NCBI RefSeq assembly: GCF_018143015.1
Contig: NC_054742.1
Location: 13,809,632 to 13,873,631 of the forward strand
Direction of reading: 5' to 3'
DNA from: Lytechinus variegatus
Lineage: Eukaryota > Echinodermata > Echinoidea > Temnopleuroida > Toxopneustidae
Length of the DNA stretch: 64,000 nt
Below are positions 3,440 to 31,301 of this stretch, piece by piece. Within the stretch, counting starts at the first letter, position 1, and every line of letters begins with the position of its first letter. Under the pieces are notes generated by a model. That model was not told where the DNA came from. It ran no database searches and worked only from the letters and a program-made list of their open reading frames with translations. A program made the translations under genes and the position numbers.

Positions 3440-4180
3440 AAATATCATCATCAAGTGGAGCACATCTGGCAGCCTCGCCTGCATTAAGCGATTCAATATA
3501 GCCACAGTGCTGACTTGGAAATCTACTATAAAGTAATTATTCACAAAATTGATTATCCATATGTCCACAATTCATAAACTATAAAAAGTTATGACAGCAA
3601 TTTAATCATTACCTCCAACATGGCCAAAGTTCATTGACCTTAATGACCTATGACCATGGTCATGTGACTTGAAACTCACAAAGGATGTTCAATGATACTT
3701 GATTACTCTTATGTCTATGTTTTATGAATCAGATCCATAAATTTATCAAGTTATGATGGTATTTCAACAAATACCCCCAACTTGGCCAAAGTTCATTGAC
3801 CTTAAATTACCTTTGTCATGCGACTTGAAACTCGCACAGGATGCTACATGTAAGTGATAATTGATTACTCTTATGTCCAAGTTTAATGAATCAGATCCAT
3901 AAACTTTCAAAGTTATCATGGTAATTTAACAAATACCCCCAACTTGGCCAACGTTCATTGACACTAAATGACCATTGAAATTGGTCATGTGACCTGAAAC
4001 TCAGGGAGGATTTTAAGTAATACTTGATTAACCTTATGTCCAAGTTTCATGAGCTTGATCCATACACTTTCTAAGTTATGTTATCATTTCACAAACTTAA
4101 CCTTTGGCCAAGATCTGGTGTTGATGCCGCCGCCATAGGAAAAGCAGCGCCTATAGTCTCGCTCTGCTATGCAGGTGAGA
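3440..4180. repeat. TGACC-rich tandem repeat, ~155-bp unit
   Basis: About four units with the words CTTGGCCAAAGTTCATTGACC, GGTCATGTGACTTGAAACTC (and variants) and TGATTACTCTTATGTC. The left end (AAGTGGAGCACATCTGG) matches the complement of the right end of the array at 28130-28890, so the two are inverted copies of one composite element. Confidence 0.75.
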
Positions 4181-6187: not shown

Positions 6188-6380
6188 TTATGGAAGCCCC
6201 ATCATGTCTAATAGAGCATTGATCTTAACATCAAGCCATGTGGTATGACTCTTTTTGAAGCACTTCACCCAAGAGGGAGGAAGATTCTTGAAGCCAAACC
6301 AACAGCCTAAAACAGCACCAGCTACAGATGCATTATAGGTACTGTCACCTCCTTGCATTGCAATCTGTGTTATCAATGAC
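6188..6380 (-). CDS. LRR-ARH gene exon 8 (stop codon)
   Basis: Encodes residues 528-591 and the TAA at 6188-6190. The second metal motif reads QGGDSTYNASVAGAVLGC where relatives have GGDxDTNAAxAGA: Asp540 is kept, the next Asp is Thr542 and the Thr is Tyr543. The tail WLDVKINALLDMMGLP matches the family's usual C-terminus. Confidence 0.88.
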
Positions 6381-9300
6381 CTGTTAATAAAATAATGCAC
6401 AAAGAGAATGTATGAACAAAGTCAGAAAAATGAATTGGAAGACCAATATCAATTAACATTAATAATATAAAAATAATATGAAAAAAAGAAAACAGCAAAA
6501 GATTTTTTAAAAATTGCGTAAAGTGCATCTCTTTATTTCACTGTTTATCATGCATGCATGTCCAGTTTCCTTATGTGTTTGCAAATAAAATACTGGAATT
6601 AAACAGAATCAGGTGAAACCGCAGTCTTTAGTGACAATGCTGATAGAATGCATCTGGGGTAATAATATGATACCACGTATCATATACCACGTATCAAAAG
6701 CACAGTTGAGTATATTCACATAGTAACAGTGCTATATAAATGGACATATTATTATTATCACATTATCTCCCACTTTCTATGGCCTTTTCTTAATGTATAG
6801 AAATATTGCCTTTTGCATAATTGCGAAGAAGGCCCTTAAGAGCAGGTAAAAATACCTAAAAATTTTGAACTTGGGACAAAAAGAAAGGGAATTTAAAGGG
6901 AAAATGAAAACCATCTTTAATTTTTGCTTGGCCTGGTTTCTCTGTGAGTATGAGACCAAGTACATTGCTTTTTCATGTTGCAATAACCTGAATGGAGCAA
7001 GATGACAAAATTCAAATTCATTTTTTTTTCACATCTCTAAAAAAGCAAACAAGCTAGAGTATATTGGATCAAAACAATCAAAAGATTCCATAATAACAGA
7101 GTATAAAAATAGAAATAATAATTTTAAAGTTTGGACAGAATTACAATACATAAGGTAACTAAAACTATCACTGAAGGTGATACCCCCACCCTATGCTGTT
7201 ACCATGGCAACAGTTTGCAACACATGGGAAAAAATATGTCCTGCCAATATGTACCCCTCGACCTATGTGTGAGCAAAATATGAGAATTGGTTAAATACTG
7301 ATGAATTAGTTCAAACCACAAGATTTTTACCTAATTCTTTACATACAATATATTGTTACCATGTTACAAGATTTCCAACAAGATGTGTGAGCGAAATATG
7401 AGAATTGTTTGAAAATTGATGAAACTGCAAGTTTTTTACCTGATTTCTTTCATATAATATGTTGCTACAATGACAACATGATTTCTGACACACACAAAAT
7501 ACATGCTTTGCACATCTTTATGTCAATACCAATGAGTGCACCAAATTTCATGAGAATCGGTTAAAAACTGAGGACGGAGTGTGAACTGCAAGATTTTTAT
7601 CTTATTTTTGCCAAAATGCACCATTACCATGGAAATACAATTTCTGACACATGCGTGTTGACGTACTTCATTTGGCGGGGGTATAATGAATGGGATGTGA
7701 GGGAGTAACAAAAAGCCAATAGGCATATCTAGACAACTCCCTGATATACATGTACATTCATTACTGGAAGGACAAAAGGACAATCATTCTCATAAATACT
7801 GGTAATCCATTAGATTGATAAGTTTTTAACAACACTATCATCACAGTTGTTTCACAGTTTTTCCCATCTTAGTAGGGATATTGCAAATATATGTATTTGA
7901 ATTTTGGAGAGCTAAAGAAGTATAGTTCTCAGAAATACTTATGATTAAATTTTGTACTAAGCATAATAATAATGAGCTCAAGGTGACTTTCAGAAATGCA
8001 TCTACAAAACTTATGTTTTAAGGTCAAGTCCACCCCAGAAAAATGTTGATTTAAATAAATACAGAAAACTCAAACATGAATAATGCTGAAAACTTCATCA
8101 AAATCTGATGTAAAGTAAGAAAGTTATGACATTTTAAAGTTTCGCTTATTTTTCACAAAACAGTTCAATTCAGTGATATGTAAATGAGAGAGTTGATGAT
8201 GTCACTCACTCACTTTTTCTTTTGTTTTTTATTGTCTGAATAATACAATATTTCGATTTTTCGAATTCGACAATTAGGACCCCCTTGCTTGAACCACAAA
8301 ATTTTGAATTCCATGTGTTCAGGGAGGAATGACACATGACAATGACAGGAAAATCGAAATATTTCATATTTCATATAATAAAATACAAAAGAAATAGTGA
8401 GTGGGTGATGTCATCGGTCCCCCTCATTTGCATACTGAACAGGATGTGCATATAACTGTTTTGAGAAATTAAGCAAAACTTTAAAATGTTATAACTTTCT
8501 TATTTTACATCCGATTTTGATAAAATTTTCAGTGTTATGCTTGTTTGATTTTTCTCTTTGTATTCAAATCAGCTTTTTGTTAGAGTGGACTTGTCCTTTA
8601 ACTTAATAGTTCAAAACACTTCCAGCATTGTAGATGAATTTGCTTGAAAAAACTTTTTGAAATTCCCATTAAACCAAATAAGGATAATTACTGTGATTTG
8701 GGCGTAAAAATTGTCTGTAGTTATTTGCATATCAAGTGTTCTTTGTCATACCTGAAGTTTGTATTCCTAGACATCTTAAGAGCTGTTATGCAAGTGGCCA
8801 CTGGTCTAAACGTGTGACTTGGCTTGTTATTATCAAGAGATCTCAAACTGTTGATAAGAAACAAACAATGATAGTGAGAATTAATCATTTCACCAATACA
8901 TTACAATTATCAATCTCATCATCATGTATGAGTCAGAAATGTAAAAGTGCTCTAGGTCTTAGAAAAGAATGAATAGGGGAAGAAGAAAGAAATAAATAGA
9001 CAAAGAATGGAAGAAAGGAAGAAAAGGAGGGAGGGAGGAAGGAAGGAAGGAAGGAAGGAAAGAAAGAAAGAAATAATAATAAAGAAAATAAGAGAGATAT
9101 AAAGAACGAATGAATGAACAAGTGAAGAAAGAAAAAAAAAAGAAATAGAAAGAGAAATAAAGAAAGAAATCAAGAAAGAAATGAAGAACAAACAAAAAAA
9201 CAAAAGAAAGAAATAAAGAAAAAGAGAAAATACATTTAAGTATAGTATCTATTAATCAAAACAACATGAAAGTGACTTTGTTAAACATACCTGTCAATAC

Positions 9301-12300
9301 ATGATACAGAACAGTATTTGTTGAACATATGATGATGTTCTTCATGGATTAGGTGCTTCCTTCCAACATCAATTGCCATGGTAATGATCTTATCAAGAGA
9401 AAGCTCCTCTGATGAAGAATTATAATCATTCTGAAGAATTAATGCTATGAGTGATGACAAGAATGCACAGCTGGCCTGACATCTAGACATAATTATGATA
9501 AAGAATAGAAAGAATAAACTGAGTCCTATTCATTATGATAGCTCATTTTCTTGATTAAAAATCATAAGGTTCGCAAGAGACTGGTAATTTGGCATCAACT
9601 GGTTTTAGTGTTGCGCCATTTTCAAAGAATTTAGGTAAGAAACAAGAAATGATATGGTTAACAGAACAGGTGCATAATAATGGATCTCCATTGATGGCAT
9701 CTACTGCATTTAACATACTTGTTTTTCCCCCTAAATTTATCTTATTGCCATTTGAGTGTCTTTGCAATGAATGTCCAAATCGAGACACACTGGTAGTTCT
9801 CAATGACAAGGTCATTGGATAAGTTTCTCAAAAGAGACTTTGCACACATGTCTTGGAAAAAGGCCAATATCAAGGATGTTAAATATACACAAATTTCTTC
9901 ATCACATTTCAGTTCATAAAAATGGTAATGTAATTTACGAAAATGACATGATTCATAATCACTGCCTCAATACTAAACAAAATGAAACAAGATTTATACT
10001 TTTATCATTTGAACTGTGTGCCTACTTCACTGTAAATGAATTCTCTACCCCAACATTCTATTCTATCTCTTTCTCTCTTCCTAGCCCCCTCTCTCTCTCA
10101 AATACTCAGACCCACACCCACACACCCACGCAAACACTAGGCAGAAATCAGGAAAATGCTCTTTTAAAGGCCAAGGTGGATAATTAAAACATATCAAAAG
10201 AAAACACCTGATCATACCCCAAAAAACATCATTCACATCAATACAACTCATTCTTTCACAAGTCTGCCAATAATAATAACTTATATTGGCATGAGTGTTG
10301 ATAGATAGACCACAGCCTGTCTGAAGAAACTATATAGACAAAATTAGATGTACATTTGTTCATTACAGAAAAAGAGTGATTTGTGTGTAAAACCATCCAT
10401 ACCTTTCTGAATCAGCTCCCATATTCTAGAAAACGAAATATAAACTTACAAATAAGATTATTGAAATGATAACAGTATTCTGCCCATCCTGCAATACATG
10501 AATTCATGTACTTGTTATTGTGTTATTGTTTTTGTGTTTGTTCTACCTTATACTTGTCATCTGTTTTAAATATAATTATAAATCATAAATCTTAATTTTT
10601 TCTTATATAGGAAATTAGTGGCTTTACTTTGTTAAAATTCTTATTTGTGCACAATGATGTGCTTATGTAATTACACAAATTTTCATTAAATAACGAATAT
10701 GTACTTGTTTTAAGAGATGAAATAAAAAGTTAAGAATGAACTGAAGAGCTTATTATGTTTAAGAGCCCTGTATTGTATAGTATGAGTAAGTGGATAGCCT
10801 AATAACTGTTATTGCCAAGATAAAAACAATTTTAAACAAGTGAAAATAAATTAATTTTAAATATGCAAATATAATAAAAATGAAAAAATATAAACACTTT
10901 AAAATGGAAAATACAATGATACTTAGGAAATTACATTTTCTTGAATGGTACTTTAGTGTAAATGAATTGGCATGAAAAAGCCTGAATTTATGTGAAGAGT
11001 TTTGACTATAATTGGAACATGGACCTCATGGTTGGAATAAAATGAAAGTGGTTGTCATCATTGTTTGTATCATCTTCATTGAGAATATTTAATCCTTCAA
11101 GGTATATTCCCAATCATGTGACAGTTTGCGTATCCCATGTAATTCAACAACCATTTACAACACTTGGGCAAATATTACTGTTTGCATATTTTCCCACAAA
11201 AAATTGTTTCCAAAGAGATACATAATTATCCAATAAGTTCTTGACTAGTGCAAAAATTGTATATTGCGTTTTTCACAAACATTGTATATTTTGAGAAAAG
11301 CTGTCAATTTTTTTTCAAATTGTGAATGATATATTTTTCTTCATATTAATATCTATCCTCTCTATCATGACACCATATTAATGACAAATTATTTATCATT
11401 TTTCAGCAACCATTGACCTAGGGAAAATGGTTGGCCAAAATGAAGGAAATTGGCAAAATGGAAGGAGCAATTGAGTTCTCCTAATAAAAAGAATTGCTCC
11501 TTATAAACATGTAATAATGTATTGATTATATGTAAATTTTATACAATCATTTGAATTTTCATTTGTTTTATGCATGACTCAGGATTAATGAGCTACCTTT
11601 CTTTAACCCTATCTAGGCCGGGGGGGGCCTCGGAGGCCCCCCTCAACAAATCGCGCGATATTTTCGCCGTGCGAAATTTTTTGACCGCGCCGCTCGCTGA
11701 CTTTTTACTTTCAAGTCTTGCGCAACTTTTGAGACCAATTTTGTTTCACCCGGGTACGTGGTTCCGAAATTACGCAACATTATGTAAGTGCATGTCAGAC
11801 CGAAAATTGCTCAAAAACATGATTTCGTGTACAAAGTCAATGCAAAATTCATAAATGTATGATTATTTTTAGTTTTGCTAGTCTAAATGTATTCATTTTA
11901 TGCTTTTTATGATCACAGAAGAGTCCCCAACAAATTTCATTGAAAAAACAATGAAAAACAAAAGGTAAAAAAACATAGAAATACATAAGAAATTGCAAAA
12001 AACAATATAATACATAAGAAAATGATTTGCTATCACAATTTTTTCATGTACACTTGCTAAGGACACCACAAAGAGTTTCTATACCAAAAATTAGTACATT
12101 TGGAGCTTTATTTAGGGAGTTAGAGGAAAAAGTATGATTTCGCATACTAATTACGCATAAATTAGCATAATCACTTAATAGCGATTCGCATGAAATAAAT
12201 TACTATACAAACTTGTGTTACGATACTGCAACAAATAACAATCAAGATGTAATTTAAATTTCCCTTTTTTTTATTACAGGAAATAATTATACATAAATAA

Positions 12301-15300
12301 AACAAATAATGATCTTACATAAATCTCTTGAAGTGTCTGATGTACAATCCAGGGTTATAGTCCAATATATATATATTCCAGGTAGGCTGGGAAGATTCCT
12401 TATTGATGATGGCGATGATGAAACTGATGTTGAAGTCCGATGAATAATAAAAGTCACTGCAACGAGTTGAAATGTCCGTGAAGACGATGTTGATGATGAT
12501 TAACAGTCAATTTCAGCAATCCATGGGTTGAAGCGTGTTCATTGAACAGGTTGATGATGTTGATGAGAACTGATAATTTCTCTCTCAAAATAACTGCAAA
12601 CAGTTCATTGATGGTGGGCATAAACTGCTCTGATCTGATCTGGTGAAGTGATCTCATATGATGTGATGTGATCTCCTGCTCTCATATGATGTGATGATCA
12701 TCTTGAAAAATCTGCAGCTTTATACTAATTACAAGTGTTCTAGATCATTCTAAAATTTCAACTTATCTACAAGCTTCTAGAATTCACTCTTCTGGAAGCT
12801 TCTTTATTTCTAAAACATTCTTGAATGACCTCATTGAAATCAACATGGGTAAACAAAATACCTAAGCCTATTCATTTCCACTACCAATACAATTCTATTG
12901 TTTGGCTTTTCCCTATTCAACAATAAAACTCCTTGGCCTTTAAATAGGCAAGGCCTGCATAATAAAAAGACATTCTGGAAAGTTCTTTACAAACATGCTG
13001 TGGAATGTACTTGATCATTCTAGGCTATTCTTAAAGAGGAAATAACTAATAGATTAATGTAACTGCTTTCACAATTCTTCTACAATTATTCTTATATATA
13101 ACACCTCCCCCACCGGGGAAAAGAAAGCTTTACCGTAGTAAAGGTTTCTTTAAGATTACTTTTTTTTCTTTTAACTGCTCAAAGTCATCTTGATAAATCA
13201 TTTACAGTTATCGTGTACAAAGATATAGTACTTAACGAACATGTTAAAATAAATGAACATCAAAGATGTTTTCTTCAAATGACACACTTGGTCAAAATCA
13301 TGAATAATGTCACTTTTTATACTCTTGATAGAGCATCAGCAATTACATTATTCTTTCCCTTTATGTGTACAATTTTCAAAGGGAATGGTTGGAGCATTAG
13401 GCTCCATCTATACAGTCTTTGATTCTTTGTTTTAAATTTCTCCAAAAACACAAGAGGATTGTGATCTGTATAGACTGTAATCTCTCCATTGGTTAGATAC
13501 ACCTCAAACTGCTGAAGGGCTAGTACGAGACTCAGGGCCTCTTTTTCAATAGTTGAGTATTTCTTTTGAAACCAATTGAGTTTCTTAGAGAAGTAGCACA
13601 CTGGTTTTTCGATGCCTTCTTCATCTTCTTGGAGCAATACTGCTCCTACTCCAACATCACATGCATCAATAGCTACTTTGAATGGCTTTGTGAAGTTTGG
13701 AGCTGCCAAAACAGGCTCATTCACCAAAATGGCCTTTAATTTCTCAAATGATCTTTGACATTCGTCAGACCAAACATACTTCACTTTTGCCTTCAGCAGG
13801 TTTGTCAGAGGACTAACCACTGTACTGAAATTTGGAACAAATTTCCTGTAGAAGCCACTCATACCTAAGAATCTGAGCAATTCTTTCTTAGTTGTGGGAA
13901 TTGGGAAGTCTAAGATAGCTTGTGACCTTTGCCTTGGCAAATTCACTCTTCATCAGATTCACTACTAGATTGGCTTTGTCCAGCCTGTCAAACAGTGCTC
14001 GCAAATGATTCAGATGATCATTCCAAGTATCACTGTATACTAGGATGTCGTCTATGTATACGACACAATTGTCAAGTCCGGCAATCACTTGATTTGTCAA
14101 CCTTTGGAAGGTTGCTGGTGCATTTTTCATTCCAAAAGGCATGACTTTGCATTGAAACAAGCCTTCAGGTGTAACAAAGGCTGATATCTCTTTGGCTCGG
14201 TCAGTCAGTGGCACTTGCCAATATCCTTTAAGCAAGTCTATCTTTGTGATATAGGCAGAATTTCCAACCCTGTCAATACAATCTTCTAACCTAGGAATTG
14301 GATACGAGTCAGTCTTAGTTACTGCATTTACCTTTCGGTAATCAATGCAAAATCTCTGAGAGCCGTCTGGCTTTGGAACCATTACAATGGGAGAACTCCA
14401 ACTACTCTGACTCGGTTCGATTATGTCATTATCTAACATAAACTGTATTTCCTTATTCACCATTTCCAACTTGCTTGGATTGAGCCTATAAGGATTCTGT
14501 TTGATAGGTCTTACATCGCCTATGTCTACGTCATGTACAGTTAAAGGTGTACGACCTGGTTTGTCTTTACATACATTCTCATATCCTCTTAACAGGCCAG
14601 ATATATCATTTCTTTGATCTTCAGGCAGGTGTTTTAATGCCTCATCCATGTTTCCTAACATCTCTGAGTTAGATAACTTTATACCACATGGTTCGTTCTT
14701 GGATACATCTGTATAAGACAATTCATTATCTGTCTTTCCATAACATTCTTCTTCATGTACATTTACATGTTTTTCTTCTTTGACCTGTGTTGTACCTATT
14801 GGCTGACTAGCCTCTCGCTCAAAGTATTCTTTCAACATGTTTACATGACAAACTCTTTGAGACTTTCTTCGATCAGGGGTACTGATCACATAGTTGACAT
14901 CATTCAATTTCTTTTTGACTATGTAGGGACCACTAAACCTAGCTTTCAAGGGCTCACCTTGCAAAGGCAACAACACTAATACTTTGTCTCCAGGCTTGAA
15001 ACTTCGCTCTTTTGCATTTTTGTCAGCTTGAGCTTTCATTTTTCCCTGCGACTCTTTCAAGTGTTCCTTAGCCACATCACAAGCTTTTGAGAGCCTTTCT
15101 CTAAACTTTGACACATAGTCTAGAAGGTTTACATCATCATTCTGAACCATAAACCTCTCTTTGATAAGCTTTAGAGGACCCCTAACCTCATGACCATAGA
15201 CCAATTCAAATGGACTGAAACCTGTGGACTCATTCGGGGAATCCCTAGTTGCAAACAGTAGGAATGAGATCCCTTTATCCCAGTCATCGGGATAGTCTTC

Positions 15301-18300
15301 ACAATAAGCCCTAATCATGGTCTTCAAAGTCTGATGATAGCGTTCTAACGCTCCTTGGGACTGTGGGTGATAAGCAGAGGACTTGATCTGCTTTATTCCC
15401 AACTCCTTCATAACTTGCTGAAATATTCCTGACATGAAATTTGACCCTTGATCAGATTGAATTTCCTTGGGCAGACCATACCTAGTGAAAAACTGCACTA
15501 ACGCCTGCACCACTGTCTTTGCAGTGATACTCCTCAAAGGTATCGCCTCTGGAAACCGTGTAGACAAGTCCATAATCGTCAGGAGAAATCTGTGACCCGA
15601 CCTCGTTCTGGGTAAGGGTCCGACACAATCAACAAGAACCCTAGTAAAAGGTTCATCAAATGCAGGAATGGGTATCAATGGAGCAGGCTTGATAGAAGGC
15701 TGTGCCTTACCAATAATCTGACATGTGTGACATGTCTTACAGAAATGCACAACATCTTTGTGCATCTTAGGCCAATAGAAATGCCTCATAATTCTATCTT
15801 CTGTCTTCCGAATACCGACATGACCTGCCATAGGTAACTCATGAGCCATTTTCAGAATATCTGTGCGGTAACAAGGAGGAACTACAACCTGGTGAATTAT
15901 ACACCAATCTTCATCAGCTGGTCTCCGGGGAGGTCTCCATTTCCTCATCAAAATGTCATCTTTGACATAAAAGCACTCAGGAACCTTATCAGCCTCAGCC
16001 TCAGAACATGCTTTCTGTGACAAGCTTTTTAATTCTGGGTCTGCCTGTTGTGCCTGTACTAGGGAGGATTTACTAAACAAACTATCATTGTTAGCAACAG
16101 AGCCTTCAACACTATCCCCATTCAAATCCTTGAAAAAGGTTTCAGCTAACCAGACATCAGTACTCTCCTCTACATCAGCAGATTCCGCATCATCCTTTTC
16201 AGCTCTACGAGTCTGAGACCTAGTAACAACACAATCCGGGAAAATCCCTGGAAAATCTTCCTGCAACAATTCAGTTTCAGCTACCTCAACGGGCTTTTCC
16301 AAAACCACTGGAGATGCAACAACTTTATCTCCAGCCAAGTCGTTACCTAACAAGAAATCAACACCTTTCATGGGTAATTCTGGAACGACACCAACAGTCA
16401 CAGGACCACTAACTAGGTCACACTTTAAGTCGACCTTATGCAAAGGAACCGACATGAAATTTGGGCCAATACCTTGAACTAAGACGTTGGCATTCTCTGA
16501 ACTCTCCGGAGGAAGAGCCGAATCCCCTGGCACCATCAGGGACTGTGCAGCCCCTGTATCCCTAAGGATCACCACTGACCTACCAGCAGCACCAGTCGAA
16601 CAAGGGGATACTTCACCATCATGCAAAAAACTTCTAAAAGTTTCATCAACCTGTTTGACTTTATCAGCAAATACCAGAGAAACACTCTCAACATCTTGAT
16701 TGGGCTCTGATGGAACAAACTCCATCGAGGGAACACTTGTTTGCTTGACAAAACCCATGTCTTTCTTAGTTTTGGTTGGCATTCCAACCAATTTCCAACA
16801 TGATTCTTTCAAATGTCCCGATTTATGACAATGAGTACAAATTTTGGAACTACGACTCTCAGACCTTTTGGTTGATTCTGTGCCCGCACTAGCCTGATTC
16901 TTGTTAGTGTCTTTATCCTTGCTTGCATATTTTCCCTCACTAGGTTTATTGTGGGATTCAAATGACCCTTTACCTTTCTTTTTCCAATAATTCTTGAAAG
17001 GAGGCCTATCTCCACTACCTTTATGTGTGACCTCAAATTCATCAGCTACTATGGCTGCTTTACTGACTTCAGTAACTCTATGGTCATCTAAGTGAGATTT
17101 AATGCCAAAAGGAAGACTCTTTTTGAATTCTTCTAGGAGGACAACTTCCCTAAGGTGAACAAAATCTTTGTCAACTTTCAGTGATCTGTACCACTTATCG
17201 AACATCATTTCTTGTTCCCTAGCAAATTCAACATACGTCTGGCCTGTTTGTCTTTGCATGTTCCTAAATTTATGTCTGTACGCTTCTGGTACTAACTCAT
17301 ATGCATTGAGAATTGTTTCTTTTACTGTAGCATAGTCACATGATTGCATTTCAGAGAGCGAAGAATAGACTTTTGCAGCCTTTCCAACAAAAACACTTTG
17401 GAGGAGAAGAGTCCAGTATTCCTCGGGCCAATTCAATCTCTTGGCCACTTTTTCAAATGACACAAAATATGTATCAACTCCCTCTTCATCAAATTTTGGC
17501 ACAAGGCGAATGTTTTTCGCCAAATCAAAGCCTTGGGGAGATTTATCTTTAACAGAGATAGTATTTGCATGAGCTAACTCCATTTCTTTCAACTTTAACT
17601 GGTACTCCAATCTCATTTTCTCCATTTCAATGTTTTCTCTGATTCTTTCCTTCTCAAGGTTTTGTTTGATTCTCTCTTTTTCCAATTTAATGTTTGCCAG
17701 TTGGATCTGAGCATCCTCTGACATTTTGATAGAAGTTTCAGGCTCCTCTGTAAGCTTCATGTGACTAGCTAACAAGTCAATTATCTCTGCCTTCTTTAAA
17801 CCTGGGGCTAGAGATACACCCAAATGATCACAAACTGTTATCAAATCATCTTTCTTCAGTGACTTCAAATGATCATATGACAATTCTGTCTTTGCAAGAA
17901 ATTCTTCAACATCAAATGAAGCCATAGTGAATATATACAAATACAAGCAAGTAATAACACAGTACAGTATATTCTAGAACTTTCCAAAAATTTCCAAAAT
18001 GTTTCCAATTCAAATTGAGATTTGTTTCAAATTGACTTTCGTCTCAAATTGGTTTTCGTTTCCAGGAAAAACTGTTTATAATTTCAAACTGGCTTGTACA
18101 AATTTGGTTTCCGTTTCCCGGACAAGCCCCCAAAAATTATTTGTTACGATACTGCAACAAATAACAATCAAGATGTAATTTAAATTTCCCTTTTTTTTAT
18201 TACAGGAAATAATTATACATAAATAAAACAAATAATGATCTTACATAAATCTCTTGAAGTGTCTGATGTACAATCCAGGGTTATAGTCCAATATATATAT

Positions 18301-21300: not shown

Positions 21301-24300
21301 AGTAGTGTTGGGTGAGGAACATCGTACCGCTCTGTCATTGGTCAATTTTGAGCATAATGCCTTCACACATTCACCTTTGATCTGCCCATAGAAGTATGTG
21401 TATTGCTACACACAACCGTTATATCACACGTGTCTACAGGGGAAATCTTGATTCAGATCGTGGTAATATCCGAAATCAACTCTTCAAAATAATGATGCAA
21501 AAATAAAATTTTACTCAAAAAATGTCTATGTAAACCACTATTTTTTATATATATGATAAATTGAATTGTGAATTAATTGCCAGTATAACAACATAAAAAA
21601 CACAAAATATGGTGTTGATTTTCTGGCTGTAAAATTGGTTAAACAAAAAAAAAGTTATTGGGCACGTATACGTGGTACGTATACCTGCCAATGGCACGAG
21701 AGGGCTAAGGGCACGCATACATGTAGCTGCTAATGGCATTTAAAGAGTTAAAAATATGAATAAATTAATTTTGCATAAATTAGCATATTTAATGAATTTT
21801 AAAATTCTGTGTAGAAGTTTTGTATCCCCCACCTAGAGCTATCATATAAAGCAAACAGAATTGAAATCGGACTTTAAATGGCGAAGTAGTAGCATTTTGA
21901 AATTGTGGACGGACGACATCATCTTGCCCTTCGGGCCGGATGAGCTAAAAATTACATTTGTTGCAGATTTTATAATATTTTTCTCACAAGGAAAGCATTA
22001 GTACCTATATGGTACAACACCAAATATATTTATAAGAACTTGTCATGCCTCATACACCAGCTCATAGCCAAAGATCACCACACCAACTTCTAACAACCAT
22101 CAAACACAAGTAGCCTACAATAAGTGAGCAAATTCTGCCACAGCACCTTTTTGGAATAATTTACTATTAAAATAACAAAATATATCAATCATCATTAGAG
22201 GATTTCAAATTTAAACTGAAGTCTTATCTATTTTACTATTATCAGTTCTTGGCACCAAGACACTTATCAAAACTCTCTCATTCTTGTGTGTCTCAGAATA
22301 GAATATTTACAGAAAGATGGCGCTATGATGGTTGCCCTTGCATCACCATCCATTGCATCATTAGCTCAATTTAAAAAGTGTGGGAATGGTTAGAAGGAAT
22401 GGTAAGTGTTTGCTGAATTCACCGTCTCACTGCTTTTCCATCTTGTCGCAAGTATTTTGTTGAACACTGATCTTTACATTTCACAAGGCCACATTGATTA
22501 TTTAAGACTCATTCACTCCATTCCAATTGACTTTATACAGCTACTACCCAGATCTATCCAGTAGGCAATAGGCTAAAACAATAAAATGTATATCTACCTT
22601 GGATCCTGGTGTGTTGATGTACATATCCTCAAAGCATTCTCCTCAACTTCATCTAGCCTGTAGAAATGAGGTACTCCAAGGATTGCCGTTCTTACTACAG
22701 CAGAATTATCAGCTAGATGTTCGCATGAATCAGCATCATGACCATCATAATTCCTATTCCATAATCCTCTTGCTATGGCACTGGGTTCTTCACAGAACAA
22801 GGGATTGGCTATCACCTGGTTAAGAAGAAAAATATAACTTTGTTTAAATAAAAAACAATGAAAGGCCTGAATTTAAAACAAGATAGATTCTTAACAGTGC
22901 TCAATCTAAATGTATGCCTCCATTTTTGCCAGATCTTAAATATATTGTACACTTTAACTCATAGATTTTTTTTTCAATTTACTCATCAGGGGGGTGTTTC
23001 ACAAAGATTTAAGTATCACTTAGAGTCGCACTTAAATGCCGAGTTGCGTACGGTATGAAAGGCTTGACCGCATTGGTCAGATCATGCCATGAGGACGCGC
23101 ACGTACAGCGTATCTATCAATAAGATCGCACGTTGCATATCATGTACGCGTCGGCATTTAAGTGCAATTTAAGTCATACTTAAATCTTTGTGAAACACCC
23201 CCCATATCTTCCCTATGTTATGCATTTATGAACTGACTTTGATTATAATATATCTATTGGATCAATGATGCAACGAAATAGATATAACTTCAATCATAAT
23301 ATCTTAAAATATTAAGTTCAATGTATCTCACTTAATCACAAATTTTTAACTTTTATACTTTATAAAGCCTACTTTAAGTTTTTGGTAAATCCCATCCTCC
23401 CATAGTAAATTTCCTGAAGCTTTCAAAAAACAACCTAAAAAATTTCTGTTCAATTCTTTTTAATTTCTTGAAAAGGACATTGAGCAATGAGCACTCTACA
23501 GAGCACTTGAATTTGGCACAATATAAGTCCAATTTATTATTTTTTAGCTCATGCCGTGGCTTGGCGTCCATCATCTGTCGTCCGTCCACAATTTCAAAAT
23601 CCTTTTTCTTCTTCATTACAAGTCCGATTTCAATTCTGTTTGCTTTATATGATAGCATTAGGTGGGGGATTCAAAACTTCTACACAGAATTTTGAAAATC
23701 ATTAAATATGCTAATATATGGGCATTTTACAAAAATTCACATGAGGGTCACCAAATGCAAAGAATGCTTCTCCTTCTAAATAATTTGTTGACCAAATTTT
23801 ATTTTTTGCTTCAATCTGGTCACCAAACTTCTACACAATATTGAAATTTTGACTTGAAAATTATTTATACTAATTTATGCATATTTCTCGAAATTCACAT
23901 AAAATGCGTCTTCTTCTGTATTTGTTGACAGTTTAATTTTTTTTTCTTCCATCTGGTAGGGCTGTATGAGATTCCCCAAACATGTACACAGAATTTTGAA
24001 ATTTTGAGTAGAAAATCATTTATGCAAAATTTATTCATAATCACAAAAAATTGTTTCTTCTTTTTTACTTGGTGACCAACTTTGATTTTTTTTTCATCTA
24101 TCTGGTAGAGCTTCATGAGAGTCACCAAACTTACACACAGAATTTTGACATTTTGACTAGTTATAGTTATAAGTTCAAATGATACAAATTTGTAATTTTG
24201 ATTTCAAATGAAATATATTTTGAAAAATATTTCTTTGAAATACAGCGAGTAGCATCATGTGTAGTGGCACAAGTGGGGGTGGGGGCAGGGGCATGGTGCG

Positions 24301-27300
24301 GGAAATAGATTAAATTTTTCAAAAAGTGAAAGGCACCACATGCGTGTCTGTCTCAAAGAAAACTTCATGAATGAGTTGTTTACTATTAAAGGTGTAATTT
24401 GACTTTCGACTGTAAGACTGTAGGCTGATTCATTCAAACGCAGGGGTTTAGCACTTGGAAGGATGCATAATACAAGCATTCATTTAGGAAAGATTTTTCA
24501 TTGCAAAAAACAACTGAAAGTTTCTTTCAAATTTCATATAATTTCTTTTGAAATACAAGTCAAAGAGAAGGGGGAACAAAAGGCTTACTTGTATTTATGA
24601 GGAACAGACAATGCTCTTTACCCTAGATGTTCAATAATTTAAACCCTATGTCTTTAGGTAGGTCTTGAATAAGTAGGTCAACTATAGTGACTTTATAGAA
24701 GATGTGATTCCAAATGAACAATCAAACCATTCAATTATTTTCTCAGGAAATAATCGAATAGTAAAAATGACATTTGTCCCAGGCCTAGACCGTCCACAAC
24801 ACCTTTGTAGGATTTGAATGTTGAATGATACCCTTTACCAAACTTAGAGAGTCCTCTCTTCTCTAACTGAGAGTATTAACAGATCAGTGCAATTAAAAAA
24901 ATCCACATTTTGAAAATTACAAAAATCAATATTTACTTGAGCAATGACCTACCTTAGCCACAGTATTACTGAATCCTTCAAATCCTTTGGTATCACCTAG
25001 CTCTGGAAAACCATGGTTGTACCAATGAACAAGTCGTTTGGCAAAGTCTAATTCATCTACCACACCAGCCCATTGGAGTATAGAGTCTAAGGTCAAAACC
25101 TGAAGAAAGAAAAATGTAACAAGAAAATCAGAATAATGCCATTGTGGGTCAATCTTCTTCATTTCAATTTAAGTCTGAAATGAGGAATGAGTCACTTTCA
25201 GAATTGCCATAGTTGATATTAATCAAATTCAAGTCAATTCAATTCACAACAAAAGTGTCCCCAAGGTGAGTGCATAATACGCCCACCTGTAAAATGGTGT
25301 TATTGGTCAAGCAAAAAAAGTGGAAGGTGGTGATAATTATATGAGCCTAGATTAAGTTGAAACTGAAGTTATCCCATTTACAAAGACTTCAGAAGGATAA
25401 GATGAAAATGTGTCACTGTGACCTTGACCTTTTGACCTCAAAGTCAATAGGCTTCCTGGGATCCATGCTAGTATCATGCATGCCAAATTATATGAGCTTA
25501 GGTTAAGTTAAAACTGAAGTTATCACATTTACAAGAACTGCAGAAGGGTAATATGAAAGCATGTCACTGTGACCTTGACCTTTGACCTTTTGACCTCAAA
25601 ATTGATATGCACCCTGGGATCTATGCTAGTATCACACACAGCAAATCATATGAGCCTAGGGTAAGTTGAATGAATTTATCGCATTTACAAAGACTTCAAG
25701 AAGATAAGATGAATATATGTCACTGTGACCTTGACCTTTGACCTTTTGATCTCAAAATCATTAGGGCTCTTGGGATCTATGCTAGTATCATACACACAAA
25801 ATTATATGAGCCTAAGTCAAGTTAAACTGAAGATATCACGTTTACAAGGACTGCAGTAGGGTAAGATGAAAACATGTCACTCTGACCTTGACCTTTGACC
25901 TTTTGACCTCAAAGTCGTTGGGCTTCCTGGAATCCATGCTAGGATCATACACACCAAATTATATGAGCCTAGGTTAAGTTAAAACTGAAGTTATTGCGTT
26001 TACAAGACCTGCAGAAGGGCAATATGAAAGCATGTCACTGTGACCTTGACCTTTTGACCTCAAAATCAATAAGCTTCCTTGGATTCATGCTTAGTATCAT
26101 ATGCAACGAATGATATGAGCCTAGGTTAAGTTAAACTGAAGTCATCACATTTACAAGAAAAAGTTAATGGACAGATAGACAGACAGACAGACATCGAGCA
26201 TGATACCATTATACGTCGCGTCTAGGACAGGCGTATTGGCAAAAGAGAAAAATTAAATGAAACAATTTAAATACAGTATATTAAATTGAATGCACCAGCA
26301 CTGCAATAATATAGAAAAGTACATTATGGCACAACAAAACATGACACAACTGAAAGATTTCAACAAATGATGAATGAAAGAATTAATTAGAATCAATTGA
26401 ATTAAATTTAATGTCAAAAAGTGGCAAACAGTTTTTTATCAGTTTCCATTTAAATTCCTTTAGTTCTATTCAAGGTCCTTCACAACTTATTGATTAATTT
26501 TAAAATTTAGTACTAAAAAAATGAGGTACTGAAATTTGCCAGATGGAAAAGATCCTCTTAGTTGCATTACAGGGTGGAAATTAAGTTTTTATCAAAAACT
26601 GTCTTAACACTTAAAGTAAGATAGCATTTTTAGTTTGTACAAAAACAAGTAAATACTATGAGAAAAAGATCTGTAAATTTGAGTTATTTAATAGATTGAA
26701 GATTTATGTGCAATGAAAGGACAGCTTGAATCACTATTAACCAAATGGCCCATTTTGGGAGACTAATGACGGGCTTTTATAATCTATCAGATGTTTTCTC
26801 CATCTTTTTCTCCGTTTTTTAATCTACATATATGGTAAGTAGTAAAAAATAAATGACTGGATATTACATTTTCACACAAGAATGGTAAATAAGTTAAGTG
26901 ACCAAGATTTCTTCATGAAAGCTTTGTTACCAATTGATCAAATGCAGTAGTCCAATCTCCCTTGGCCCATTGAAGTCTGTGTTTATCACTTATTTTCTGA
27001 TTCGGATGAAGAGTATGTTCATCATAATGGAACTTGCATTCATCTTCTGTCATCCAAGCTGTACACAGGCCAATAGCATCACCAATAGCAGCACCATACA
27101 ACAGACCTTATATTGATAAACAAGGAGAGGGGTGGTCAAATAAACTGTTTCATAGTACTTTTAGCTGAGAAGTTATAATATGATTGGAATATAAAATCAT
27201 TGAATTAAATTAAATGAATTGTAAATAAGAGTTAAAGGAGAATGAAACCTTTAGAACAATATAGCTTGTGTGAAAATAGAAAAATCAAAGAAACAGATCA

Positions 27301-30300
27301 ATGAAAGTTTGAGAAAATTCGGACAAATAATGAGAAAGTTATGGGCATTTGTATATTGCAATCACTAATGCTATGAAGATCCTCACATTGGCAATGCGAC
27401 AAAAAAGTGTGATGTCACTTGTGAACAATTCTCCCCATTACTTTGATATATATTTCACTTAAAATTTCCTCTTTTATCAAATCTATCAGTAGATAATGTG
27501 TTCTTTCTACAGGAGGGCATGTAATACAGATTTTAAAAGAATACATCATGGATAAAGAATTTGTATCATCATAAGAAAAAGCAAAAAGAGACATTTTGGG
27601 GGTATTTTATAGTCCACCAAAGGGAAAGTTGTTCACATGTGACATCACACATCCTTGTCGCATTGCCAATGGGAGGATCTCCATAGCATTAGTGATTGCA
27701 ATATTCAAATGCATCTCTTATTTAGTCTGCGGTAATCGTTCGTATGTTATTGTCGCGCATAGTCCATCATTGCTCTTTTGTCAAAATGGGCCAATCTCAA
27801 AAGAACCCTTAACGAAGCAACACTATGACACAAACATACAAGAAAGCTTGATCTATTCCCTTGTCCTTATTTATAATCGCACGCGATATCAAACCATTGC
27901 TCACTGTTTGTTCATCTTATTGGGTTATATCAACCCTTCGCTCGCCTTCGGCTGCAATTTACTCAAAGAGGCGAACAAAAAAATCGATATCCTTTGCATG
28001 TCATATTGATCCTTCGCTTACCGTTTGTTGATAAAATGATATGACAAAAATTTTATTTGAATTTGTTGAATTCGCATGCATTTTTCCCATTAGTCACCCT
28101 TCGTCCGCCTGCATAAGTCAAGTGTGAGGGGGTTTAAGGTTAAGTTTTCGAAATTTCGTCATTACTTCTAAAGTATATGGATCTATTTCATGAAACTTGG
28201 CCATGAGGGTAATCAAGTATTACTAAACACCTTGCCTGAGTTTCAAGTCACATGACCAAGGTCAAAGGTCATTTAAGGGTCAATGATCTCTGACTAAGTT
28301 GGGGGTATTTGTTGAATTACCATCATAACTTTGAAAGTTTATGGATCTGATTGTTCATATAACTTACACATAAGAGTAATCAAGTATCACTGAACAACCT
28401 GTGCGAGTTTCAGGTCACATGACCAAGGTCAAATGTCATCTAAGGTCAATGAACTTTGGCCAAGTTGGGGGTATTTGTTGAATTACCATCATACCTTCGA
28501 AAGTTTATCGATCTGATTCATAAAACTTAGACATGAGAGTAATCAAGTATCACTGAACATCCTGTGCGAATTTCTGGTCACATAACCAAGGTCAAAGGTC
28601 ATTTAAGGTCAATGAACTTTGGCCATGTTGGAGGTAATTATTAAATTGCTGTCATAACTTTCAAAGTTTATGGATATAGTTTATGAAATGTGGACAAAGG
28701 GGTAATCAAGTATCACTGACAAGTCTTAGGTCACATGATCAAGGTCAAATATCATTTAGGATCAATGATTGTAGTATTGTATCATTATATGAATGGTGTT
28801 TTTTGTGAATAATTAATTCATAGTCCTTTTCAAAGTCAGCACTGCTGCAATATTGAATCATGCAGGTGAGACTGAGAGGTGCTCCACTTGTTAGTATATT
28901 CACCCATAATATCAATTTGACAGGTCATTTTATAATGAAAATAATATTGATGTAAAGAACTCAAATCAGTTCAATTATACCAAACACTATACAGTTCTCC
29001 CAATGGAAGTGAAACACACTTACCAACTACCTTATCCATAAGCTCATCTGCTTCTAGAGTAGTAGCACCTGGAGGCGGTCTCAAGGGGGTGCGAATTCTG
29101 CTCTTTGTATTGGTAGTCTCTGTCAGCTCTTGGGCATACTGTGCCTGCGCACAGTGGGGGTTGGCAACACGTGATTGCAAGACGTCCCCTATAATTTTTA
29201 AAGAATACATAACAATAATAAATTACATCAACTTAAAAAAGAATGTCGCTTAGGCAAGCACATAATATGCCCGCCTGTAATGCGGAAAATGGAGAAAAGC
29301 AAGAAAAGAGAAGGTGGTGACTTTTCCTAAGACCTTCTGACCTAAAAATCAACAGGCTCCTGGAGCTCCATGCTAGTGTCATACAAACCAAATTATATGA
29401 GCCAAGGTTAAGCAAAGTTATCGCATTTATAGGGACTGCAGAAGGGTAAGATGAAAACATGTCACTGTGACCTTGACCTTTGACCTCTTGACCTCAATAT
29501 CAATAAGCTTCCTGGGGTCCATGCTAGTATCATACACACCAAATTATATGAGCCTAGGTTAAGTTAAACTACAGTTATTGCATTTACAAGGAAAAATAAC
29601 GGACGGACAGCGAGCGTGATAACACGTCCCGTAGGAGAGGCATATACATGTAGAAACCTACAGAATAATCATCTAATTTCTGAAAAAGCAGAGATTAACT
29701 TTCCTATCAATAGGAAAAATATAATTTTATTACATATAAGGAAATAGCTTTGTTTTTTAATCAAGCCATCAATCAATGCAGAATGGGCAGTAGTAATTTA
29801 CCTTTCACTGACTTTATCATATGCTCATTAAAATTTAAAGTTTTAAATACACATAATACCTAGGTGTGAGATGCTGATTACCTCTACATCGTTTGAAAAC
29901 ATTTCCTGTATTGCTCTTTTTCGGAATGTATCCATTTTCAGACTGCTTCCTGAGAAACTGCAATGTCTTCTCTGACCCTTCATCGCATATACTCTGAGGA
30001 GGAGATGCGCATCTGTTATTAGAAGCCAACAAAACTTCCATGATGCTAGACTTCCCAAGAGATGAAGGCAACAGTGTTAACAAATTATCCATGACATTCA
30101 ACTTATGTAGCGATTCCATGCCTCCTATATTCTCTGGCAGAGACTTGAGTTTGTTGCTAGATATATCCAGCTTTTCAAGCTTTACAAGATGGATGAAAGA
30201 ATCCGGGAGATGTTCAAGTTCATTATGATTGATGAGCAATGTCTTGAGATGAAATAGAAGAGAGAAGCTATCTGGTAGAAGAGTAATACGGTTGTGACTC

Positions 30301-31301
30301 ATATTGAGGTAGGAGAGATGAGGGAGACGGAGAGGTATCTCTGGTGGTATAGCGGATATATGATTGAAACTAGCATCCATGTGTTCAAATAATGAAATAG
30401 AGTCAACCAAAGCCCAAGGTAACTCAGTCAATGCTCCTTCTAATTCTTCACCTGCAACATGCTAGATGAAGAGAAATTGAAAAAAAAGAAACCAACAATA
30501 ATTAAAAAGTATATAGATATCAAGCTCAAATATCAGCAATGCATTAGATTTGGAGGAAGGGCAAGAGTCAATAATGGGAGTCGCACACATCATTATAAAA
30601 AAATACTCTGGTTATATGTATAAAGCACTTTTAACAGACATACACAATTTAAGCACCCAAGTGCTTACAGAAAAATTAATCGGTCATTTGATTCAAGCAG
30701 TCGTTCCCACACACAATGCATGCACATCCTCCTCTCCATGGGGAGTAGTCCAGCCAGTACTGGACAAGCTACCATGACTTACACATCCTAATGTGTGAGA
30801 CTTGGCATGCCTCAAACTGGTCAAATCAAACTGGATAAATTTTATCAAGCTCAAGACCCCCCCCTCCCTTCCTAAACCATGATACACATATATTTTGTGA
30901 TCTTGCTGTTAATATAGAATGGCCATACTCTTTGGCCCAATCGATGGTTATATTCATTCTTAAATGCACAGATGTAATGAGAACATACCCAATTTTTTTT
31001 TCTGCAAACAAAAATACAAACAACTTACTAAATTCAAATTCACACTATTATTGTCACTATTTAAAAAATAATTCAATCACAAACAGTGATTGTGTTGGTA
31101 TGTATTTACATGTATACCTTTAGTATTCCAAGTAATGTAATCTTGTCAGATGTAGCATATTCAAACTTTCTTGGTTTTCAGAACAAGTATGTTTACCTTC
31201 TGGTAATCACTACTAGTGATTTTTCTGGTCAGCTTTAGTTCTTTTCTCTCATCAGGTCGCACTGGTGTGAAGTCATTCACTTGCAGCTGAACGTTCCCCA
31301 T
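6188..31301 (-). CDS. LRR-ADP-ribosylglycohydrolase-like fusion protein, probable pseudoenzyme (8 exons)
   Basis: Exons in transcript order: 31197-31301, 29882-30461, 29024-29188, 26931-27106, 24953-25099, 22598-22815, 9291-9482, 6188-6380. All junctions are GT-AG and keep phase, giving 591 residues and a TAA stop. The start MGNVQLQVN has an in-frame TGA six codons upstream and a purine at -3. Residues ~50-210 hold five to six 23-residue leucine-rich repeats of the LxxLxxxxNxLxxLP type. Residues ~275-591 follow the ADP-ribosylglycohydrolase fold in order: YGAAIGDAIG, KGDWTTAFDQ, GFPELGD, DNSAVVRTAILG, THQDPRCQASC, QGGDSTYNA, and a WLDVKINALLDMMGL end. From family knowledge the metal site is normally TDD plus GGDxDT; here four of those six positions differ (T337, A338, T542, Y543), so hydrolase activity is unlikely. 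Role is unknown: possibly binding ADP-ribosylated partners while the LRRs dock protein. No signal peptide or membrane segment seen. The fusion rests on splice phase, not on transcript data. Confidence 0.85.
7140..7770. repeat. Diverged tandem repeat in LRR-ARH intron 7
   Basis: Three loosely repeated blocks share the words TGAGAATTGGTTAAA, AAGATTTTTACCT and GTTACCATG (or variants). Unit length is roughly 180-230 bp. Confidence 0.5.
8019..8602. mobile_element. Foldback element, AAAGGACAAGT family
   Basis: Long inverted arms: left TTAAGGTCAAGTCCACC, right GAGTGGACTTGTCCTTTAA. The arms carry TCATCAAAATCTGATGTAAA, ACAAAACAGTT and TGATGTCA in mirrored positions. No coding sequence. Confidence 0.75.
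8990..9235. repeat. Purine-strand GGAA/GAAA repeat
   Basis: Almost pure A/G on the plus strand, with a (GGAA)n core near 9035-9060 and (AAAG)n flanks. Open frames on the other strand here are low-complexity artefacts. Confidence 0.85.
9291..9482 (-). CDS. LRR-ARH gene exon 7
   Basis: Encodes residues 464-527. It opens with CQASCAFLSSLIALIL, which completes the THxDPRCxASC motif across intron 6, followed by a helical stretch. The exact motif continuity over a 13-kb intron supports this exon pairing. Confidence 0.85.
9840..11600. other. Intron 6 sequence without a recognised feature
   Basis: AT-rich intronic DNA with a short CT run and CACA run near 10070-10135. Nothing gene-like or clearly repetitive is visible to me. 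Confidence 0.5.
12216..13103 (-). repeat. 3' LTR of the Gmr1-like element
   Basis: 888 bp, TG...CA ended in the plus-strand reading (TGTTACGATAC at the left, TATATAACA at the right), matching 18142-19029 almost base for base. On the element's strand it contains a TATAAAG box (12718-12724) and, upstream of it, heat-shock-type TTCnnGAAnnTTC motifs at 12790-12802 and 12973-12985. Confidence 0.93.
13104..13120 (-). other. Polypurine tract
   Basis: On the minus strand the sequence GGTGGGGGAGG directly abuts the start of the 3' LTR, the expected position for second-strand priming. Confidence 0.75.
13317..17946 (-). mobile_element. gag-pol coding region of the Gmr1-like element (fossil)
   Basis: Parts in order on the minus strand: a gag-like region from 17946 with a SAP-like N-terminus and a charged coiled coil (~17575-17730); a CCHC zinc knuckle (CTHCHKSGHLKESC, ~16800-16845); an aspartic protease core (DTGAAQSL, ~16560); integrase with its HHCC zinc domain and DDE core (~15100-15870) and a GPY/F-type module (~14820-14950); reverse transcriptase with YIDD (~13960-14500); and RNase H (~13330-13700). 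Treated as a fossil copy: nearly intact, with about one break. Confidence 0.88.
18115..18132 (-). other. Primer-binding site, tRNA-Pro type
   Basis: Read on the minus strand, TGGGGGCTTGTCCGGGAA closely resembles the proline-tRNA primer site used by murine leukaemia virus. It is 9 bases inside the 5' LTR. Confidence 0.7.
18142..19029 (-). repeat. 5' LTR of the Gmr1-like element
   Basis: 888 bp copy of the 3' LTR and the one that would drive transcription. The same heat-shock-type motifs occur at 18716-18728 and 18899-18911, with TATAAAG at 18644-18650. The near identity with the other LTR indicates youth. Confidence 0.93.
19680..19750 (-). mobile_element. Decayed tRNA-derived SINE head
   Basis: On the minus strand CTAGTGGTTTGCACAATGG resembles a tRNA A box and TTGTGAGTTTATATCCC a B box with the usual spacing. 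The rest cannot be delimited. Confidence 0.45.
20340..20910. mobile_element. Foldback element, AAAGGGATT ends
   Basis: Inverted ends TTAAAGGGATT / AATCCCTTTAA. Arms share TCATCAAAATCGGATGACAA and its complement, TGAATATTCAT and TGATGTCAC. It is related in layout to the copies at 8019 and 45523. Confidence 0.75.
20935..21040. repeat. AAT/AAC/GAT microsatellite
   Basis: Imperfect (AATAAT)n mixed with AAC and GAT triplets; a poly-C run follows at ~21164-21185. Confidence 0.85.
21660..21960. repeat. Repeat shared inverted with 23540-23720
   Basis: AAATTGTGGACGGACGACA, CAGAATTGAAATCGGACTT and AGAAGTTTTGTATCCCCCAC reappear as complements at 23540-23700. Both ends carry a GAGCTAAAA-type terminus. 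Confidence 0.6.
22598..22815 (-). CDS. LRR-ARH gene exon 6
   Basis: Encodes residues 392-463 plus part of Arg464. It contains LADNSAVVRTAILGVPHF, matching the family's NGALMRTxxLG segment, and THQDP, the start of the THADPRCxASC motif completed in exon 7. Ends in phase 2 at GTAGAT, before a 13.1-kb intron. Confidence 0.88.
22989..23203. mobile_element. MITE with GGGGGGTGTTTCACAAAG ends
   Basis: Inverted ends GGGGGGTGTTTCACAAAGAT / ATCTTTGTGAAACACCCCCC, extending through AAGTATCACTTA and its near complement. The GC-rich centre contains GCGCACGTACAGCG. Confidence 0.8.
23540..24170. repeat. Tandem ACAGAATTTTGAAATTTTGA repeat
   Basis: Starts with the inverted partner of 21780-21960, then three or four ~150-bp units each with ATCTGGTAGGGCT-like, CACCAAACTTCTACACA-like and TTTATGCATAT-like words. 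Confidence 0.6.
24953..25099 (-). CDS. LRR-ARH gene exon 5
   Basis: Encodes residues 343-391, including DFAKRLVHWYNHGFPELGD, a strongly conserved segment of this ARH subfamily (FAxRLxxWxxxGFPELGD). Both ends are phase 0; the acceptor is TTCTTCAG and the donor GTAGGT. Confidence 0.88.
25265..26235. repeat. TGACCTTTGACCT tandem repeat, ~157-bp unit
   Basis: About five and a half units in LRR-ARH intron 4. Each has GAGCCTAGGTTAAGTTAAA, ACAAGAACTGCAGAAGGG (and variants), GTCACTGTGACCTTGACC and CATGCTAGTATCAT. The ends are CATAATACGCCCACCTGT and (GACA)n...TCGAGCATGAT. It contains several AGGTCAAAGGTCA direct repeats on the minus strand. Confidence 0.85.
26931..27106 (-). CDS. LRR-ARH gene exon 4 (ARH N-terminal motif)
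   Basis: Encodes residues 284-342. It carries the family signature GLLYGAAIGDAIG and the segment DKHRLQWAKGDWTTAFDQL. In active relatives the latter reads KGDWTDDTDQ; the two adjacent aspartates are Thr337 and Ala338 here, while Asp340 is kept. Confidence 0.88.
27233..27715. mobile_element. Foldback element in LRR-ARH intron 3
   Basis: Mirrored segments: TTGCAATCACTAATGCTATG, CATTGGCAATGCGAC and GTGTGATGTCACTTGTGAAC on the left reappear as complements at 27620-27712. The left end TTAAAGGAGAATGAAACC resembles the AAAGGACAAGT group. Confidence 0.65.
27715..28130. other. Intron 3 sequence, nothing recognised
   Basis: Contains CG-rich words (CGCTCGCCTTCGGCTGC) unlike its surroundings, but no exon or repeat could be defined. 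Confidence 0.4.
28130..28890. repeat. AGGTCA-rich tandem repeat, ~155-bp unit
   Basis: Four to five units with AGTTTCAAGTCACATGACC, AAGGTCAAAGGTCATTTAAGG and AGTTGGGGGTATTTGTTGAA. It is the reverse-complement family of 3440-4180; its right end GGTGCTCCACTTG complements that array's left end. Confidence 0.8.
29024..29188 (-). CDS. LRR-ARH gene exon 3 (linker)
   Basis: Encodes residues 229-283. It looks like a low-complexity linker (ends LRPPPGATTLEADELMDKVV) joining the LRR and ARH parts; the ELMDKVVG stretch is where ARH proteins begin their first helix. The split glycine codons on both sides fit exons 2 and 4 exactly, which is the main evidence that LRR and ARH are one protein. Confidence 0.8.
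29240..29645. repeat. Short copy of the TGACCTTTGACCT repeat element
   Basis: It has the same ends as 25265-26235 (GCACATAATATGCCCGCCTGT-like start, GACGGACAGCGAGCGTGAT end) but only about two internal units, so unit number varies between copies. Confidence 0.75.
29882..30461 (-). CDS. LRR-ARH gene exon 2 (leucine-rich repeats)
   Basis: Encodes residues 36-228. Repeats begin at FEHMDASFN, LSYLNMSHN, LKTLLINHN, LEKLDISSN and LHKLNVMDN, with LP at the expected place in most; MEVLLASNN starts a degenerate last repeat that runs into a PPQSICDEG cap resembling the C-terminal cap of intracellular LRR proteins. The exon has a CTAG acceptor and ends in phase 1 at GTAATC. Confidence 0.85.
31197..31301 (-). 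CDS. LRR-ARH gene exon 1 (start codon)
   Basis: Encodes residues 1-35, from MGNVQLQVN to SSDYQK, and ends in phase 0 at a GTAAAC donor. The ATG lies in the context GAAATGG. An in-frame TGA at 31317-31319 excludes a longer N-terminus in this exon. A glycine follows the initiator Met, but the usual Ser/Thr of a myristoylation signal is absent. Confidence 0.75.

Follow-up and report, generated by a model that had tools for sequence, protein, structure and literature searches.

A predicted leucine-rich repeat protein fused to an ADP-ribosylglycohydrolase-like domain with a degraded metal site in Lytechinus variegatus

One question raised by a stretch of 64,000 nucleotides of the Lytechinus variegatus genome (NC_054742.1, positions 13,809,632 to 13,873,631, the whole of which is called the window here) is what an ADP-ribosylglycohydrolase-like (ARH) domain might still do once its metal site has been degraded, and once it has apparently been joined to a series of leucine-rich repeats (LRRs). 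The gene concerned occupies positions 31301 to 6188 of the minus strand, and the original prediction, made from the letters of the sequence, had read it as an LRR-ARH fusion selected for a non-catalytic role. Our preferred reading, to which we give about an even chance of being right, is that the gene encodes a single LRR protein fused to an ARH/DraG-type pseudoenzyme acting as a scaffold or competitor; such a protein is probably intracellular.

The eight in-phase exons that had been proposed are indeed found on the minus strand, where they amount to 1776 nt and form one open frame of 591 amino acids (aa) with no internal stop, all seven introns being GT-AG and compatible in phase, and the GC content of each exon exceeding that of both its 100-nt flanks. 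The parts of this model are as follows.

Exon 1, 31197..31301, minus strand: ATG start, MGNVQLQ..., aa 1-35; donor AAG/GTAAAC.
Exon 2, 29882..30461, minus strand: about six LRRs (SHOC2-like), aa 36-228; acceptor ATCTAG, donor GAG/GTAATC.
Exon 3, 29024..29188, minus strand: linker and first ARH residues (DELMDKVV), aa 229-283.
Exon 4, 26931..27106, minus strand: YGAAIGDAIG, Glu-flap position Ala300, and GDWTTAFDQ (metal ligands lost at 337 and 338), aa 284-342.
Exon 5, 24953..25099, minus strand: ARH domain, aa 343-391; weak when searched alone with the profile (E 0.75).
Exon 6, 22598..22815, minus strand: DNSAVVRTAILG and THQDPR, aa 392-463.
Exon 7, 9291..9482, minus strand: CQASC..., aa 464-527; E 0.023 alone in the profile search; no GYT block before exon 8.
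Intron 7, 6381..9290, minus strand: scanned for a GYT...LW exon, none recognised.
Exon 8, 6188..6380, minus strand: GGDSTY (Asp540 kept, Thr542 and Tyr543 changed) and the stop, aa 528-591.

Both halves of the spliced protein belong to recognisable families. The N-terminal half matches Pfam LRR_8 in two stretches (E 2.7e-16) and has SHOC-2 as its best PDB match (E 4.6e-49), and the six repeats that can be counted by eye agree with the number first suggested. The C-terminal half matches Pfam ADP_ribosyl_GH (PF03747) with E 1.1e-35 and 124.2 bits against a cut-off of 26.2. Its best PDB matches are MJ1187 (E 3.6e-16) and DraG-type chains; the 15 PDB sequences at E <=0.01 comprise MJ1187, DraG-type proteins and ARH3, the last weakly matched at the C-terminal motif (best E 2e-4), and none is named ARH1.

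Relatives of the ARH domain were collected from plasmid, bacterial and archaeal genome, and viral-contig sequences. Searches by tblastn gave three plasmid records and no match in phages. Viral contigs scanned with the window protein returned one pattern match, which was not confirmed; scanned with a two-sequence alignment they returned three relatives, and the bacterial and archaeal genomes 108, of which 80 loci were kept. The patterns used for the genome scan lack the T-D-D site and therefore do not select for an intact one. The resulting 85 loci gave 84 open reading frame (ORF) hits, and the 64 that reached at least 255 aa and exceeded 40 bits (61 genome loci, two plasmids, L001 and L002, and one viral contig, L083, near-identical rows being kept) were aligned with the window domain, 20 being omitted. 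A wider set of 167 ORFs of at least 240 aa (from 170 hits) includes 80 from viral contigs; these were retrieved by two patterns, and as TDDT is part of one of them, the viral rows are biased towards an intact site. The best full-length bacterial loci are 31-33% identical to the window domain. No LRRs were seen in the 11 longer ORFs inspected, and Pfam gave no LRR match in six of these or in one ORF of 324 aa.

Some bacterial ARH ORFs carry other additions. That of Argonema (L025:1299-2783) is fused to a cREC_REC receiver domain, and that of a Nitrospirae genome (L019:162-1565) to a glyoxalase-like domain. Two from Muribaculaceae (Bacteroidales; L058:2117-3427 and L056:1391-2647) have an N-terminal GGGGMNAV stretch, in which Pfam gave no match and which we take to resemble the start of FtsZ.

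How far, then, is the active site of the family preserved in the window protein? Residues are numbered after the Rhodospirillum rubrum DraG chains 2woc and 2woe, whose chain index minus 5 gives the numbers of Glu28 and Tyr212 in PMC7050489; the numbers of T59, D60, D61, D243, D245 and T246 are obtained with that offset. In the family alignment E28 corresponds to Ala300, T59 to Thr336, D60 to Thr337, D61 to Ala338, D243 to Asp540, D245 to Thr542 and T246 to Tyr543, and only T59 and D243 are thus kept of the metal site and Glu flap. The earlier assertion that the aspartates of KGDWTDDTDQ have become Thr337-Ala338 and that GGDxDT has become GGDSTY (538-543) is correct as it stood, as is the count of four lost positions among the six named. 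Aligning 336-340 and 540-543, which had been suggested as a check, shows that positions 337, 338 and 542 each hold an aspartate in 63 of the 64 close relatives and that all three are changed in the window protein; 62 have the aspartate at 540, 60 the threonine at 543 and 63 the glutamate at 300. Likewise, the wider set has the aspartate in 166/167 rows at 337, as at 338 and 542, and in 165/167 at 540. All four aspartates occur in 80/80 viral and 79/82 bacterial rows; the rows with two or fewer (L062 and L068) are both incomplete ORFs, and no other relative with a degraded metal site was seen among the 167 aligned.

The alterations extend to the Thr of TDDT, now Phe339, and to the Gly and Met of NG..MRT, now Ser429 and Val432; the TH motif (459-460), Asn428 and Arg433 are kept along with Asp540. 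GFPELGD, which had been listed among very well kept motifs, does not fare as well, the ELGD part being aligned to gaps in the 64 relatives; this stretch may be peculiar to eukaryotes. According to a review, the catalytic features of the family are the metal site and the TH motif (PMC9503650); the positioning of ligands in ARHs requires both metal ions (PMC7050489). Because the placing of the substrate needs both metals, catalysis by the known route would be very unlikely in the window domain, and canonical binding of ADP-ribose unlikely.

A second departure from the family lies between the TH motif and GGDSTY, and in this respect the domain cannot be called complete, as it had been. From TH (459) to GGD (538) there are 79 residues in the window protein and 96-131 (median 97) in 63 relatives, a shortening of at least 17 residues, and the GYT...LW block is absent from the gene model. 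In an AlphaFold2 model of the relative L003 (19 sequences, mean predicted local distance difference test score 94.9) this block forms a helix at 241-251, preceded by the Tyr at 240. The GYT Tyr, present in 61/64 close relatives and in 122/167 of the wider set (the remainder having S, F and others), aligns with DraG Tyr212, on which the adenine stacks (PMC7050489); the window protein thus lacks an adenine-side Tyr and helix that are usual, if not universal, in ARHs. No GYT exon was found in intron 7 among 63 phase-compatible candidates searched for the motif, and none was recognised among 92 scored with the profile (best E 0.66). Similarly, when 3526 six-frame pieces of the window were searched with the profile, ARH exons 4-8 were recovered and nothing else scored better than E 8. 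There is no N anywhere in the window. These searches could nevertheless have missed an exon that is diverged or very short, since exon 5 alone scores just E 0.75.

Do these losses reflect a change of function, or simply the decay of a gene? Forty-eight alignment columns are near-invariant, a single residue being shared by 95% or more of the 64 relatives, and the window protein is changed in 16 of them. Loss of such residues is enriched at the active site, yet it is not confined there, since 5/7 active-site columns and 11/41 others are affected (one-sided Fisher p 0.033, the column sets having been chosen after the data were seen). The 'tight conservation elsewhere' of the original prediction is accordingly partly right: 30 of the 41 other columns are kept and 11 are not. 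We think it unlikely, if less so than the other alternatives, that the ARH part or the whole gene has lost its function and evolves under relaxed selection, with a stretch of the core already gone; the missing helix-containing block and the total of changed columns would be expected of such a gene. However, the 591 codons contain no stop or frameshift and the intron ends are canonical. In simulations of neutral change, with 1000 frames at each rate, the share still open fell from 26% at 0.02 substitutions per site to 4% at 0.05 and 0.6% at 0.1, and no frame survived at 0.2 or 0.5. Moreover, each of the altered codons 300, 337, 338, 339, 542 and 543 is at least two base changes from the nearest codon for the family residue, 12 in total. 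Six doubly changed codons in an open frame argue against old neutral decay; very recent decay could pass the frame test but leaves the doubly changed codons unexplained. If the ancestral residues were the canonical ones, the sequence favours a protein that has been kept.

The join itself must also be weighed, the exon 2-3 junction, on which the predicted LRR-ARH fusion depends, being the weak point of the gene model. It is in our view quite unlikely that two adjacent genes are present, an LRR gene of exons 1-2 with its stop at 29835-29837, and an ARH-like gene starting in exon 3, for example at the Met of DELMDKV, near which the bacterial ARHs begin. Exon 2 can be read through its donor for 15 codons to this in-frame stop, with an AATAAA about 105 bp further on at 29731, and the exon 3 acceptor, TTATAG, is poor in pyrimidines (9/17), the donor being TTG/GTAAGT. 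But the window has 84 copies of AATAAA on this strand, so one within about 110 bp is expected some one time in seven; the donor of exon 2 and the acceptor of exon 3 are both in phase 1 (chance 1/3); and the GC content, taken in 33-nt steps, rises from 0.12 to 0.61 precisely at the exon 3 acceptor, as it would where an internal coding exon begins, exon 3 as a whole having 0.53 against 0.30 and 0.29 in its 100-nt flanks.

Could the domain instead be a reader, which binds ADP-ribosylated proteins without cleaving them? The residues kept around the site would suit this role, which had been put forward with the original prediction, and some pseudoenzymes do retain substrate binding (PMC10601310). 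The proposal is nonetheless weakened to the point where we hold it very improbable, both by the need of ARHs for two metals in ligand placing (PMC7050489) and by the loss of four metal-site positions together with the block equivalent to that of Tyr212. With this combined loss a canonical ADP-ribose reader is unlikely, and a pseudoenzyme of protein contacts resembling ADPRHL1 becomes the favoured reading. For the other suggested role, that of a decoy in immunity, no evidence was found in the window. Least probable of all is an error of assembly or gene model, with the GYT block on an unassembled or unusual exon or the sequenced allele being odd: the gap does fall at one intron, where exons 7 and 8 meet in phase 2, and a diverged exon might escape the profile as exon 5 nearly does, but the window is free of N, yields no extra piece better than E 8, and has six altered active-site codons spread over two exons, which is beyond one assembly fault.

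We return to the scaffold or competitor. Several points weigh against it: both the LRR-ARH join and the selection are predictions from genomic sequence; the changes in near-invariant columns away from the active site also fit relaxation; the neutral simulation takes the ancestral residues as canonical and omits insertions and deletions; with a core helix missing, the domain may fail to fold; and even the reported inactivity of ARH2 may reflect the model substrates used (PMC9738213). In addition, the Tyr212 block and the Glu-flap residue weigh less than the aspartates, since Tyr is not universal at this position and DraG depends little on its Glu-flap residue (PMC7050489). On the other side, the loss of most metal ligands, of the Glu-flap residue and of the adenine-Tyr block, in a frame still open over 591 codons, lends support to the non-catalytic role that had been claimed. 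The ARH domain would then neither hydrolyse nor canonically bind ADP-ribose, the LRR arc would bind a partner protein, the remaining helical bundle would offer a second contact surface, and the whole would serve as scaffold or competitor, much as ADPRHL1 works without catalysis. There is also a slim chance that the gene represents a new class of LRR-pseudo-ARH proteins that selection has kept in animals, the dead domain being a scaffold or bait for effectors or partners related to ADP-ribosylation, which the LRR region would sense or present.

The remainder of the window contains features of several kinds. Intron 6 holds a Ty3/gypsy element on the same strand as the LRR-ARH gene (12216-19029), with two long terminal repeats of about 888 bp each that differ at one base (12846). 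Inspected by eye, the flanking sequence shows a 4-bp duplication, CTTG, on either side of the element. The element's integrase precedes its reverse transcriptase, an order known from the Gmr1 clade, which is described from deuterostomes and an annelid (PMC8220671, PMC4131045). Five tandem arrays (3599-4079, 25335-26157, 28159-28719, 33315-34411 and 49373-50263) have periods of 157-163 bp, with TGACCTTTGACC stretches in at least one, and in one case 100 bp; two of them sit in introns of the LRR-ARH gene. A fragment of reverse transcriptase at 44206-44568 on the minus strand (RVT_1, E 4.5e-7) is perhaps the remnant of a non-LTR element. On the plus strand, 56773-57000 is the C-terminal exon of a BAP1/calypso-like deubiquitinase (PDB BAP1, E 7.8e-24; Pfam UCH_C); that plus-strand ORFs at 51761-56050 belong to the same gene is a guess, none of the four scanned being above the Pfam cut-off.

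How does the predicted protein compare with known systems? Within the wider ARH family, the J1-crystallins and selenoprotein J are relatives apparently recruited away from catalysis, the crystallins being structural. For selenoprotein J, the available parts of PMC3316567 and PMC3473315 give its distribution and make no link to ARHs or crystallins. Nearest in sequence are DraG, MJ1187 and the bacterial ARHs of YGQAIGDALG type, mostly from Bacteroidota; in these, however, the metal site and the Glu are retained, as the Tyr usually is. ARH3 (ADPRS), of the same family, differs in being an active enzyme with intact metal sites and no LRRs. Conversely, the intracellular LRR proteins of SHOC2 and LRRD1 type resemble the LRR part, which is closest to SHOC-2 in PDB, whereas here just about six repeats are followed by an ARH-like domain. 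An LRR-ARH fusion was not found among the matches listed in the literature searched, whose coverage is incomplete, nor is one described in the available parts of PMC3750612 or PMC3482391, in agreement with the original prediction, whose author knew of no such described system. Loss of catalysis is already known in the family from ADPRHL1 (ARH2), and it is an LRR partner on a dead ARH that would be new here, within that literature.

ADPRHL1, a pseudo-ADP-ribosylhydrolase of vertebrates, is the precedent. Three of its four aspartates are lost, along with Tyr263 and three serines, and it has no comparable activity (PMC7390403). It is nevertheless needed for growth of the Xenopus heart chambers, disruption of its ancestral active site leading to heart defects (PMC7390403), and human cardiomyocytes that lose it show adhesion disturbed through ROCK (PMC10601310). 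An essential job can thus fall to a dead ARH domain. Like ADPRHL1, the window protein is an ARH family member with three of four metal aspartates changed and the adenine-side Tyr lost (PMC7390403, PMC9738213). ADPRHL1, however, is 47% identical to ARH1 (PMC9738213) and keeps Asp55 of the first pair, whereas the window protein keeps the first Asp of GGDxDT (Asp540), has LRRs, and matches DraG-type proteins, MJ1187 and bacterial ARHs best. On present evidence, with ADPRHL1 known here by description and not by sequence comparison, the two would be parallels and not orthologues. If this second loss is real, having arisen seemingly on a DraG-like branch, with a different aspartate kept and an LRR partner, then the ARH bundle would have been reused non-catalytically more than once, and the window gene would provide a comparison case for what a non-catalytic ARH module does.

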